Shown here: piece after piece, positions 12,542 through 17,402 of the stretch
How positions within the stretch are numbered: position 1 is the stretch's first letter
Layout: each line of letters begins with the position of its first letter
Origin: Deltaproteobacteria bacterium
GTDB taxonomy: Bacteria; Desulfobacterota; WTBG01; CAIYCZ01; CAIRTM01
Assembly (NCBI GenBank): GCA_024276465.1
Contig: JAJRXD010000010.1
Location: 1 to 38,506 of the forward strand
Direction of reading: 5' to 3'
DNA: 38,506 bases
The notes under the pieces: generated by a model
The model's database searches: none
What the model was told of the DNA's origin: nothing
What the model saw: the letters and a program-made list of their open reading frames with translations, nothing else
Position numbers and translations under genes: made by a program

Positions 12542-14245
12542 TTAAAGGCCAGAGAAGGAAGTGGTTTCATTAAACCTGTTTTTCAATATCTCAATATCTT
12601 CTTGTAGAGACGGCCCTGCATTTTGAGATATTTTTTCACACAGATCCCTTATGACTGTTAACGTATCCCTGCTGACAGTTGCTCTGGTGCCATCCATTAG
12701 AGCCTGTACATGGGGAAGTATTGCTGCCAGGACTTCCCTGAAAGCAGCTCTGAGATCAGGGTCCCGCATTAACATTGCGGTCAGTTCAGGTGAATGCTGA
12801 TAATACAGCCTGACAAGCTCCCTGCCTGTCTCACTGCTCAGCAGAATCTTATCCCTGAAATTTCGCAACAGATCTGTTTCATAAGAATCATCCCCTAAAA
12901 CAGCGGATGCAGGACACAATCTGTCTGATACTGTTGTTGTGGTAACAGCTGGTACAGACGTGGTTGAAGAAACCGGAGCTGTGATTGAAGTTGTGGTTGA
13001 AGATATCGTTGTTGTTGCAGTTCCTTCCTGAAAACATTGCCCCACATTCTCAGATTCACCGCATACCGGGTACTCTGAAGTACAGCAGTATCCATTTTCA
13101 CAGTCAACTGGAAAGCCGGAAGGACACTGACTGCCTGAAACAGTTGTTGTTGTTTGAGCCCCCTCCCCGGCAGTAAAGTCAATGTCCGAAACAGTCTGCC
13201 CGGCTGAAACAGTAACAGTACCGCTGTAATTCTGCCTTGTGACCGGGCTGGTAAAAGACTGCCCGTTTGTGCTTTCTGCATATGGCCCCACTGCAGAGCC
13301 CCCTGTAAACTGTTCATTAACAGGTTCAATAAACAACCTGTATGTTCCGGGAGTAACAAGCATTTCATATGATCCGTCATTTTGCCGGTAATAATCTGAA
13401 ACACTTGAGAACTGGCTCATGGCCTCATCACCCTCTTTTACAGCCACAACATTTGCGCCAAGAACCGGTCCTCCACTTGCCCATACTACATTTCCGGTTA
13501 TCCTGCCATAGGTAGCAAAATAGTTTCCCGCTGGATAAAGAAGCGTAACAGCTGCTTCATCATCAGGATTAAGTTCACCAAGAGAGGTGTCATCATCAGT
13601 TGAAGTTGGAAACATGGTGGGTATGTTTTCATCATTTCCAGTATCTCCATCCGATGCATACTCAAGGTTTATCTGAGTATGGTCCAGACCGAAAAAATGG
13701 CCGAACTCATGAACAAACGTTGCTTTGAACTGTTCATAGGTAAAATCCGTTGAAAATTTTCCATTCAGCAGAGCCTGTCCCTCCACATAATAGCCTGTTC
13801 CAGTACTGTAGCCTGAACCTGCAAAGCCTATCACCTGGTCACTCAGCCCCTGTCCAAAAAAAGCATCAGTTATTGATCCATCAGAATCAAAAACTATCGG
13901 GTTAATGCCATCATTCAGGTTGTTTAAATATGAGGAGTAGTTATTTGCATTCACATCAACTGAAAGCTGGCCGGCATTCTGAAAAGTGATTGTGGCTGTG
14001 GAAACATCCTGCCATATCTCAAAGCAGTCATTTACAAGTGCTGTTGCCTCATCATTTGTAAATATTCCTAAAGTTCCCCTGTCAGTGCTGAAGGGAATGG
14101 GAAAATCAGAAGCAGGATACACAACCACAACCGCTTTCCCGTTAATTTTAACCGTGACAAGAGGCCCTCCGGCAAAGGAAGGAGTGCAAAAAGCTGTAAA
14201 AGCTGTCATTAAATAAAATATTGTCTTCTTAAGAGTGGTTCTCAT
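12542..14245 (-). CDS. Secreted matrixin-like zinc metalloprotease with Cys module and CFI-box-like tail
   Basis: About 567 residues. A signal peptide (MRTTLKKTIFYLMTAFTAFC, then TPSFA) is followed by a metalloprotease domain with HEFGHFFGLDH near residue 179 (three Zn-binding His, catalytic Glu) and a likely Met-turn in NIPTMFPT: a matrixin-type (M10) zincin. Next comes a carboxypeptidase-regulatory-like beta domain (GRITGNVVWASGGPVLGANV to FTAGEG), a Thr-rich linker, a six-Cys module (CENGYCCTSEYPVCGESENVGQC), a second Ser/Thr-rich linker, and a helical tail beginning CPASAVLGDDS that is shared with the protease at 15072-17402. GGAGG lies just before two adjacent ATGs (14248, 14245); the second has the better spacing. 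It is probably a secreted degradative or surface enzyme. Confidence 0.82.
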   Translation of the reverse strand: MRTTLKKTIFYLMTAFTAFCTPSFAGGPLVTVKINGKAVVVVYPASDFPIPFSTDRGTLGIFTNDEATALVNDCFEIWQDVSTATITFQNAGQLSVDVNANNYSSYLNNLNDGINPIVFDSDGSITDAFFGQGLSDQVIGFAGSGYSTGTGYYVEGQALLNGKFSTDFTYEQFKATFVHEFGHFFGLDHTQINLEYASDGDTGNDENIPTMFPTSTDDDTSLGELNPDDEAAVTLLYPAGNYFATYGRITGNVVWASGGPVLGANVVAVKEGDEAMSQFSSVSDYYRQNDGSYEMLVTPGTYRLFIEPVNEQFTGGSAVGPYAESTNGQSFTSPVTRQNYSGTVTVSAGQTVSDIDFTAGEGAQTTTTVSGSQCPSGFPVDCENGYCCTSEYPVCGESENVGQCFQEGTATTTISSTTTSITAPVSSTTSVPAVTTTTVSDRLCPASAVLGDDSYETDLLRNFRDKILLSSETGRELVRLYYQHSPELTAMLMRDPDLRAAFREVLAAILPHVQALMDGTRATVSRDTLTVIRDLCEKISQNAGPSLQEDIEILKNRFNETTSFSGL

Positions 14246-14260
14246 CATCCTCCTTTTATT

Positions 14261-14303
14261 CGGGTTGCGGGTTTTAATAAATATATTTTTAACTCGCAAC
14301 CCG
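14261..14303. repeat. Inverted repeat in the protease 5' region
   Basis: CGGGTTGCG (14261-14269) and CGCAACCCG (14295-14303) are a perfect 9-bp inverted repeat around an A/T-rich loop, directly upstream of the matrixin-like gene's ribosome site. Related CGCAAC/GTTGCG words occur at 23878-23898 and 28901-28918. The rest of the gap up to 14461 holds other repeat-like pieces (ACGCCCCGTAAGCGGGACGG, and ATTCGCGCATAAATGCGCTC with a short palindrome) and no gene. Confidence 0.6.
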
Positions 14304-14461
14304 TCAACCCAATTGCCTTTGTCCTGACGCCCCGTAAGCGGGACGGCTACCAGCTGCTTTGTGCTTTTTGTTTTATACTTCTTTTACCTGCCCAGGTCCA
14401 TTCGCGCATAAATGCGCTCCTACCCCTCTGTGCCTTTGCAACTTTGTGCCTCTGCGCCTGA

Positions 14462-15067
14462 TTATTGACCTTCCCTGAGCAGTGCTTCCACAACGTCAAT
14501 AAACAAATCATAATTTATCGGGCCTGATTTTTGAGACAGAACATCAACAATCCTGCTCTGGTAACTGGTTTTCGCAAACAGGTCAAAATATGTCTTCCTG
14601 TCCATACCTTTAAAAAGATTGCTGTTATTGTTTTCATTTCTAACCTGCCTGGAGCCATCCTTCAGGTATCGCACTGAAAACTTACCCTGGCCCAGACCAA
14701 CTGGACTTGAAAAACCCCACCTGCTCTCCCCTGAGAGGAAAAGGATAACTTCGTCTCCTGTCCTATATGTCGGCACCTGTTTCATCTCCACAAGCATTTT
14801 GCTCTGTTTAACAGACAAATGACTGCGTGAAGGGCCTTTAATCATTTTGTTTACACAAAAAGTATAAATATATACTTCGCGCTGCAAACCTTCATCATAT
14901 GCTTTTTCATGGCCGATGCATTCACCTGAAAAGATGTATTTGGCTGAACCTGTTATTTCAGCTAAATTTATCTGTTTAACAACAACCGCACGGCTGTCCT
15001 AATCTGACAGTATTCCAAAAAGCAGACATGCAGCAAAAATAATTCTCTTGGATTGTAATCCTTTCAT
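14462..15067 (-). pseudogene. Small secreted protein gene interrupted by an in-frame TAG
   Basis: Reading from the ATG at 15067 (GGAG about nine bases upstream) gives a signal-peptide-like start, MKGLQSKRIIFAACLLFGIL, then SD, a TAG at 14999-15001, and then 179 more in-frame codons to 14462. The continuation (DSRAVVVKQINLAEITGSA, YIFSGECIG, VYIYTFCVNKMIKG, YRTGDEVILFLSGES, SPVGLGQGKFSV) looks like one intact globular secreted domain, without gaps. So one base change separates the signal from the mature part. A TTG at 14887 could start a truncated 141-residue product without export. The ATG lies four bases after the stop of the upstream protease, implying coupled translation. The family is not named with certainty. 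Confidence 0.72.
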
Positions 15068-15071
15068 AACA

Positions 15072-17402
15072 CTATCTCCATTTTGCCATCGTATTATCAA
15101 AAGTTTTTTGCACCTTTTCAATGACTTCCTTCAGTTCAGGGCCTGCCTTCTCCCGTATATCGTCACACAGCATATCAATCTCTTTTTTCAGATCGCTTTT
15201 AATGCTGACATTTTCCCCATTCAATATCTCTGTTATGACCGGTATTATTCCTGAAAGCAGCCTTTTAGTCTCTGCCCTTATATCAGGATTTTTAAAAATT
15301 ATTGAGCTGATCTCTTCAGCATGCTGGTAATAAAGATTTACCATCTCCTGTCCTGTCTCTTTGCCTGACAAAACCTCATCCCTGAAATCTCTCAGGATGT
15401 TAGCCTCATCAGAGTCATCTCCTAAAATTTTTGAGGCAAAACATCCTGAAGCAACAGTTGCAGGGACCAGAGTTCCTGCAGAATCATAAAATCTTATATT
15501 CGGACCTGTACCTGATGGTGGTTGCCACTGGCCTTCAACATTTCTGTAAACAGCACCACCGTTATGTACATTTGCCTTGTTTAATGTGGGGCCATTGGCC
15601 TTGAGAATGAATTCTCCGTTATAACCGAAAAGACCTGCAGACTGGTTGGCCATATTGGCAACTGCATAGCTTTTCAAAAGGTCCTCCCATGAACTTATCC
15701 CTGAAATAGTCTGGACGGCCGCCCCTGCCACACCCTGATAATCATGAACACCACTGGCAATCATATAATTCAATATGTCCTTGAAAATTCCCTGGCCCTT
15801 TGATGAGTGAATTGAAAGATACTGCCCCATAAGATAAGAAAGTGCGTAATTGGAAAGAAGATCACCATCCTGATCCCAGTAGCAGAGGCCGTGTCCGTTT
15901 CTTATGCTGTTCCTGGGGTCTGCTGAATAATATCCAATCCGGTCTGTCAGGTAGCCGTCCCCCTCCATGCTTGGATGTGTAAAAAACATGTCAGCCTTGA
16001 GCTTTTCCTTGAAATAGATGGTTTCAGTGGACATTGCCATCATTTCATCTATCCACACATCAGAAGCTTTCCCGTTTTCTCCCTGTGTCCAGACCTCTAC
16101 CCCAAAATGAATCAGGTGCTGACACTCATGCACAAGCGTTGTGAGGTTGTACTCATAAAAGTCACCTCCGATCTGTTCCCAGCCTGTTGGCTCATTGCCG
16201 CGGATATAGACTATGTCCATTTCATTGCTTCGTACACCCTGCACCTTTGTTAGCGAATCTTCCATATAATCCTTCATCCAGAAATACCCGCCCATGTACA
16301 TGTTTATGCTGCCGCTGTCATTCATATTGTACAAAAGCACTGTTATTTTTCCGTTTCCATCCCTGTCAGAAAAATCACCAATATTCGGTGAAAGAACATT
16401 GCTGTACATGAAATCAAATTCTGTGACATACAGATCAAGGGTTGCCTCTGGTATGGATAAACTGTCATCAATAAAAAGATAGCTGTAGGTGCCTGTCCTC
16501 ATGTTAGTTGCAGACAGTTCTCTCCATGCCCGGTCATTGCTGTCTTTAACCCAGAAAGTTTTCTGATCACCTGTGTCGTATGCTTCTGTTTTCTGCAGGC
16601 CGTAATGTTTTTTTTTATCTTCCAGAATTTCTCTTGTCTTTTTCAGCAACTCAGGATCAAGAGGAGGAAACTGTTTGTCATACCAGAGAGGTATTGGCCT
16701 TCCGTCTTTTCTGTACAGCATGGGTTTAACCTCTGAAGGGCTTGTACCGGGCAGGGTTCCTGATGGTTCTGTATGTGCCGCATCTTCACCCTTAATATTT
16801 ATACCGACTATAAAATCAGTGCCCGCTCCTCCACCTGCAGGGACTGTTGTGGTCCCTTCTCCTGAAACTGTTGTGGTTGTGCCTGATTCCTGCAAACACA
16901 TTCCATAGTCACTACCATCACCGCATATTGGGTAGTCTTCAGGGCAGCACCAATACTTTTGGTTTGGTAAATCAAGACATTCAAGCGGACCATCAGTATC
17001 ATTTGCACAGTATTGTGATATTGTTGTTGTAGCAGCACCACCTGGAACAGTTGTGGTTGGTGATTGTGAAACTGTAGTGGTTGTGCCTGATGGAATAGTT
17101 GTGGTTCCTTCTCCTGGTATGCTCGTTGTTGCAGGGGAATCAAAAATAGTTGTGCTTGTTGAAGGTACTGTACTGGGTGATGAGTCGCTGTCACAAAACA
17201 GAGTATCATAGTCAAATATGCATATCGGAAAATCTGTTTCACAGCATCCCCAAAACACACCATCCTCATCAAAGCATTCAACAGTATAATCAGGATAATC
17301 ATATGGGGGGCAGTAGCCCTGTGCCCCTGCCCATTGTGATACCACTAAAGTAAGAGCTATGACAAAACCTGAAAACAACATATTAATATATCTGTTCTTC
17401 AT
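15072..17402 (-). CDS. Large secreted zinc metalloprotease with two Cys modules and CFI-box-like tail
   Basis: A 776-residue exported protein; the signal peptide ends near WAGA-Q (residue 28). It has a first six-Cys module (31-70), a Ser/Thr-rich linker with TTTT runs, a second six-Cys module (132-169) and another Thr/Gly linker. The peptidase domain (about 225-650) contains LVHECQHLIHF (HExxH at 425-429) and DVWIDEMMA, where Glu 453 is a likely third zinc ligand, as in M30/MA-type peptidases. The C-terminal 110 residues (CFASKILGDDS, LYYQH) match the tail of the matrixin-like protease and recall CFI-box C-terminal domains. The start has GGAGG 14 bases upstream. It heads a three-gene run on this strand. 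Substrate unknown; extracellular protein degradation or surface attachment is plausible. Confidence 0.82.
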   Translation of the reverse strand: MKNRYINMLFSGFVIALTLVVSQWAGAQGYCPPYDYPDYTVECFDEDGVFWGCCETDFPICIFDYDTLFCDSDSSPSTVPSTSTTIFDSPATTSIPGEGTTTIPSGTTTTVSQSPTTTVPGGAATTTISQYCANDTDGPLECLDLPNQKYWCCPEDYPICGDGSDYGMCLQESGTTTTVSGEGTTTVPAGGGAGTDFIVGINIKGEDAAHTEPSGTLPGTSPSEVKPMLYRKDGRPIPLWYDKQFPPLDPELLKKTREILEDKKKHYGLQKTEAYDTGDQKTFWVKDSNDRAWRELSATNMRTGTYSYLFIDDSLSIPEATLDLYVTEFDFMYSNVLSPNIGDFSDRDGNGKITVLLYNMNDSGSINMYMGGYFWMKDYMEDSLTKVQGVRSNEMDIVYIRGNEPTGWEQIGGDFYEYNLTTLVHECQHLIHFGVEVWTQGENGKASDVWIDEMMAMSTETIYFKEKLKADMFFTHPSMEGDGYLTDRIGYYSADPRNSIRNGHGLCYWDQDGDLLSNYALSYLMGQYLSIHSSKGQGIFKDILNYMIASGVHDYQGVAGAAVQTISGISSWEDLLKSYAVANMANQSAGLFGYNGEFILKANGPTLNKANVHNGGAVYRNVEGQWQPPSGTGPNIRFYDSAGTLVPATVASGCFASKILGDDSDEANILRDFRDEVLSGKETGQEMVNLYYQHAEEISSIIFKNPDIRAETKRLLSGIIPVITEILNGENVSIKSDLKKEIDMLCDDIREKAGPELKEVIEKVQKTFDNTMAKWR

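Follow-up and report, generated by a model that had tools for sequence, protein, structure and literature searches.

A C-terminal CFI-box tail on diverse exported proteins of an uncultured bacterial order: a candidate exchangeable sorting or anchoring domain

We analysed a 38,506-nucleotide stretch of a Deltaproteobacteria bacterium genome (assembly GCA_024276465.1, contig JAJRXD010000010.1, positions 1 to 38,506; hereafter the window), in which two genes for secreted metalloproteases lie on either side of a small secreted gene and each ends in a C-terminal tail. A preliminary description, made from the sequence alone, had proposed that the two proteases have different catalytic domains but share a six-Cys module, Thr-rich linkers and the tail, and this was confirmed. 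Genomes and loci are cited by our own handles (G and L numbers). The features of the two protease genes are as follows.

12542..14299, minus strand: secreted metzincin protease, a 585-aa open reading frame (ORF) from TTG 14299
12545..12916, minus strand: long CFI-box tail of the metzincin, beginning CPASAVLGDDS (NF041770, 53.2 bits)
12917..13021, minus strand: Thr/Ser-rich linker preceding the metzincin tail, seen in the sequence
13022..13129, minus strand: six-Cys module of the metzincin, residues 391-426
13325..13501, minus strand: CarboxypepD_reg-like beta domain of the metzincin, a weak match (16.3 bits, below cut-off)
13514..14182, minus strand: metzincin catalytic domain, with HEFGHFFGLDH and a TMFP Met-turn
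15072..17402, minus strand: secreted metalloprotease of 776 aa, M30 (lugdulysin-like), in which a signal peptide, two six-Cys modules and Thr linkers accompany the catalytic domain and the C-terminal tail
15075..15443, minus strand: long CFI-box tail of the M30 protein, beginning CFASKILGDDS (NF041770, 40.8 bits), with an all-helical AlphaFold model (mean pLDDT 91)
15612..16589, minus strand: M30 catalytic domain, residues 272-597, with HECQH (phmmer to 7bb8, E 2.5e-25)
16884..17012, minus strand: six-Cys module 2 of the M30 protein, residues 131-173
17013..17189, minus strand: Thr-rich linker joining the two six-Cys modules of the M30 protein, seen in the sequence (TTTT runs are enriched in tail proteins)
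17190..17315, minus strand: six-Cys module 1 of the M30 protein, residues 30-71

Both ORFs lie where the preliminary description had placed them, and their catalytic domains are unrelated. The similarity to lugdulysin (7bb8) over the catalytic domain, together with an HExxH motif, places the larger protein in Peptidase M30; a scan of genome contigs with this domain returned only metagenome-assembled genomes and distant matches. The second protease carries both the HExxHxxGxxH signature and the Met-turn of metzincins, as HEFGHFFGLDH and PTMFP. It had been called matrixin-like, a label that holds at the level of the metzincins but not for matrixins (M10) in the narrow sense, since it scored 25.0 bits against Peptidase_M43 (cut-off 23) and 20.2 bits against PF00413 (cut-off 24). 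Its translation probably starts at ATG 14248 or 14245 rather than at TTG 14299. The six-Cys module, with the pattern C..C..CC..C..C, occurs twice in the M30 protein and once in the metzincin, and the two tails share 41% identity over 113 residues (E 1.2e-27).

The tail had been likened to CFI-box C-terminal domains, and the relationship proved closer than that. Membership of CFI_box_CTERM (NCBIfam NF041770), a named but functionally uncharacterised family of which we found no mention in the literature searched, is set by the curated model's cut-off of 40 bits and does not require the literal box. Both tails score above this cut-off, the M30 tail only just, and thus belong to the family rather than merely resembling it. 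As in other members, the tail is C-terminal and begins with Cys, followed by LRxFRD, Gly and YY; the CFIATAAYG box itself is replaced, as the preliminary description had said, by CFASKILGDDS or CPASAVLGDDS (that is, CFASxxLGDDS or CPASxxLGDDS), with only the box Cys retained. An alignment of 36 tails shows little or no variation at the Cys, two Arg, an Asp, a Gly and one Tyr. Larger numbers were available from a set of 80 tail ORFs, comprising 60 neighbourhoods from three genera and the window; in nearly all of these tails the Cys is present, usually 15-19 residues ahead of LRxFRD, and it sits at the boundary between linker and domain.

Tail lengths are bimodal, at 68-88 or 108-147 residues. 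AlphaFold, the structure prediction proposed at the outset, models the long tail as seven helices and nothing else (pLDDT 91, pTM 0.81). On the alignment the short tails stop about where helix 5 ends, suggesting that the long form adds helices 6 and 7; this extra two-helix half of ∼45 residues, often present in the window's lineage, is one difference from the rest of the family. A second is the lack of a membrane helix in nearly all tails of the lineage (3 of 84 above KD 1.6; median maximum KD19 0.84), whereas the canonical CFI-boxes of exported proteins inspected in G090 and G007 continue into one. A Foldseek search of the PDB with the tail model gave no match under E 1. The best VIA-align score (Z 5.3) was on helical bundles. 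Matches by sequence profile fell on de novo designed bundles and on helical proteins of scattered kinds, and reflect composition.

The preliminary description had treated the tail as a property of the protease cluster, which turned out to be too narrow. In the 4.1-Mb genome of the window, copies were found at 37 places by a tblastn-type search and at 39 by the family model, and in 37 proteins by a rebuilt profile, scattered over the genome. The cargos include M30, metzincin, M14 and M64 proteases, multihaem cytochromes, PQQ and sortilin-type propellers, and PKD, CarboxypepD_reg and acyltransferase-like proteins. There is one tail per protein, always C-terminal; within the 80-ORF set the distance from its end to the stop is 0-22 aa in every stop-containing ORF except one (48 aa). 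By a simple and admittedly crude rule, a signal peptide was called in 65 of 76 tail ORFs compared with 262 of 629 neighbouring ORFs (p 1e-13), the background here being the neighbours of tail genes themselves. Several tail ORFs without a signal peptide are broken genes or late starts: one in the window's genome is split by a frame change (L081 8569-9758), with the exported N-terminal half directly upstream (L081|8, |7). The long form was seen solely on exported proteins or gene fragments. TTTT runs are also concentrated in tail ORFs (23/80 against 9/667 others, p 3e-17), while the six-Cys module accompanies the tail less often, occurring in 4/80 tail ORFs and 0/882 others, all four having been seeds of the module's model. 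In L091 (G002:C115), three near-identical 257-aa tail proteins lie near each other, indicating a recent local duplication.

The genomes compared here are metagenome-assembled and some are incomplete. Within the window's family, six genomes hold 49, 37, 32, 32, 19 and 18 tails, and three others 0, 1 and 0. The search across the phylum that had been suggested gave some tail match in 66 of 247 genomes, with dozens of copies only in the window's order and near relatives; counts of at least 17-18 per genome, scoring having been capped at about 17, were confined to the window's family and order. Elsewhere in the phylum the rule is 1-5 short canonical copies per genome, usually 1-3, with 13 in G090, compared with 18-49 in the tail-rich genomes of the family. 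Full-length long forms come almost entirely from the window's class, G186 being the one likely exception. In G090, which belongs to another family, canonical CFI-box secreted proteins form head-to-tail runs (L185 6035-14073, L186), each with a hydrophobic, membrane-helix-like end.

Comparison of orthologous proteases supports a movement of tails and modules between cargos. M30 orthologs that keep the tail are full-length in G002, G003, G007 and G009 and partly broken in G010; a second copy in G003 is cut off by the contig end. The six-Cys module is N-terminal in G000, G002 and G003, absent from G007 and G009, and directly before the tail in G010. Metzincin orthologs carry a short tail in G002, a long one in G003 and G004, and none in G042, which belongs to another class. 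A single clade for the metzincin tails of the window, G003 and G004 was rejected by the approximately unbiased (AU) test (p-AU 0.0009), as was the pairing of the window and G004 tails (p-AU 0.007), the groups having been defined by catalytic orthology but after a first tree had been seen, and the branches being long. Exchange of tails between orthologous cargos is therefore supported, and with it the shuffling part of the earlier proposal of modules shuffled around a common targeting or attachment system; the targeting part is plausible, and no partner gene was found. The metzincin ortholog of G283 (L163) ends in GGACFIRSIL..., followed by a hydrophobic stretch and basic residues, and possibly carries another Cys-containing C-terminal tag.

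Between the two proteases lies the small gene, with two further features.

14462..15067, minus strand: small gene for a secreted protein, interrupted (signal peptide MKGLQSKRIIFAACLLFGILSD...); relatives have intact orthologs ahead of the metzincin
14999..15001, minus strand: in-frame TAG in the small gene, just past the signal peptide

It had been described as a secreted gene, and the signal peptide is indeed there, upstream of the listed ORF, but the gene is not whole. Read in frame from ATG 15067, the signal peptide is followed by the TAG, with the remainder running to 14462, so that the gene is broken in the present assembly, whether by a nonsense mutation or by an error of assembly. In G002, G004, G042 and G283 an intact ortholog stands ahead of the metzincin, and a Pfam search with an ortholog matched no family. 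The presence of the intact gene together with the metzincin in other classes indicates that this two-gene cassette probably predates the tail.

What might such a tail do? We propose that it sorts or anchors proteins as an exchangeable C-terminal domain with a common envelope partner, a reading we regard as evenly poised. It was prompted by the C-terminal position, the export signals, the diversity of cargos, the exchange, the lineage-specific expansion, the conservation of the Cys and the confident helical model. Cargo would leave the cytoplasm by way of its N-terminal signal peptide, and a flexible, often Thr-rich, linker would then present the C-terminal bundle, of five helices in the short form or seven in the long. 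The common partner would recognise this bundle and steer the protein to, or hold it at, a single common destination, of which the cell surface or extracellular matrix is the most likely. At the junction of linker and helices, the conserved Cys may be a contact or attachment point, and the type II secretion system (T2SS) is the likely outer-membrane route. In a bolder version, an undescribed surface-sorting pathway of one Thermodesulfobacteriota order would have the long soluble CFI-box tail as its recognition domain; this pathway would serve dozens of enzymes and cytochromes per genome, use the Cys as attachment site, have dedicated machinery and replace exosortase, rhombosortase or myxosortase systems. 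Such a pathway is possible, though we advance it tentatively.

Several results weigh against a sorting role. A test for co-occurrence with a particular secretion or sorting gene had been suggested, and no common partner gene was found for the tail among those checked. Exosortase is absent from the tail-rich G002, G003, G004, G007, G009 and G010 and present in the tail-free G005. No orthologous group of CPBP proteases tracks the tail, the commonest lacking G000 and including the tail-poor G006. The T2SS secretin GspD is found in tail-rich and tail-poor genomes alike, and so is not a dedicated partner. Rhomboids were not found in the tail-rich G007 and are present in the tail-poor G005, G011, G013 and G015; in this respect the tail differs from GlyGly-CTERM and its rhombosortase. 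No localisation data were found for any CFI-box member. Finally, canonical CFI-boxes outside the phylum occur on cytosolic-looking proteins, without a signal peptide by inspection: in L153, L154, L156 and L157, from plasmids of bacteria and an archaeon, the C-terminal box follows cold-shock and zinc-ribbon, TPR, or (archaeal) Mrr-like and WYL domains. This means that the parent family does not in itself constitute a secretion signal and that, judging from these carriers, its ancestral role is not sorting. Tails on unrelated cytoplasmic proteins, which the preliminary description had listed as evidence against its proposal, thus exist for the parent family but were not seen for the long form.

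Genes recurring next to tail genes in the 60 neighbourhoods and the window were for the most part signalling or mobile genes held in common, or belonged to single orthologous loci, and included no common partner. A search for SprA, the translocon of the type IX secretion system (T9SS), gave no match in any genome, the controls likewise remaining without a match. An exopolysaccharide (EPS) locus related to the XrtA set is headed by a sortilin-type tail protein in G000, G002 and G004, and the export loci concerned (L086 7966-15310, L105 2691-11636 and L115 6128-16046) are XrtA/PEP-CTERM-like, though below equivalog cut-offs. The tail shares with PEP-CTERM both its use as a genome-wide C-terminal tag and, in three genera, the first place in an XrtA-like EPS locus. 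It differs in having no tripartite short tag and in being abundant in six genomes without exosortase, which is missing from two of the three genomes with a tail-headed EPS locus. The tail-poor G006 retains this locus but not its tail gene, as does G008 over the part covered by its contig, and so the locus is not specific to the tail.

The nearest alternative is a cleavable, covalent version, in which a modification such as lipidation is placed on the conserved Cys and the helical part is removed by cleavage, as has been proposed for MYXO-CTERM and as in T9SS C-terminal domains; we think it unlikely. The T9SS domain offers an analogy of working, being a folded C-terminal domain on many signal-peptide proteins, but it is a beta-sandwich, whereas the tail is all-helical. 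A covalent role would fit a Cys that is near-invariant and lies exactly at the boundary of linker and domain. It would also fit the 157-aa tail protein L103|7, whose mature chain has no second Cys, making intramolecular pairing impossible. There is a precedent in MYXO-CTERM, where the invariant Cys is predicted to be lipidated and cleavage is distal to it (PMC11980579), and the tail resembles the MYXO-CTERM/myxosortase system in its conserved Cys at the C-terminal junction, its dozens of exported cargos and the presence of T2SS (PMC11980579). However, MYXO-CTERM is a short motif with a membrane helix and an Arg cluster, while the tail is a helical domain of 70-130 residues, nearly always without a transmembrane helix. 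Moreover, no sortase-type protease, CPBP proteases included, tracks the tail, and the Cys is missing from the junction in at least one tail (L020/L078|4).

Alternatively, the tails could bind one scaffold or each other non-covalently to build a multi-enzyme surface complex, in the manner of dockerins with cohesins. The diverse cargos, the helical fold and the single, always C-terminal tail are all consistent with an assembly domain of this kind; among known assembly domains the PDB search returned none with a matching fold, although a missing match is weak evidence, and we judge this explanation distinctly improbable. Similarly improbable is that the tail serves exported proteins in general by helping them to fold or stay stable and plays no part in targeting. 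The cytosolic-looking carriers of the parent domain would favour this reading, but it sits poorly with the strict C-terminal position, the exchange between cargos, and the dozens of copies in some genomes with none in near relatives that share the tested envelope machinery.

Whichever role applies, a named but unexplained domain here marks the C-termini of exported proteins genome-wide throughout an uncultured bacterial order. Since tail-rich genomes stand beside near relatives nearly or wholly without the tail, the function of the CFI-box becomes testable. Should the tail prove to serve a true sorting pathway, Gram-negative cells would have one more, unrelated way of holding proteins on their surface.

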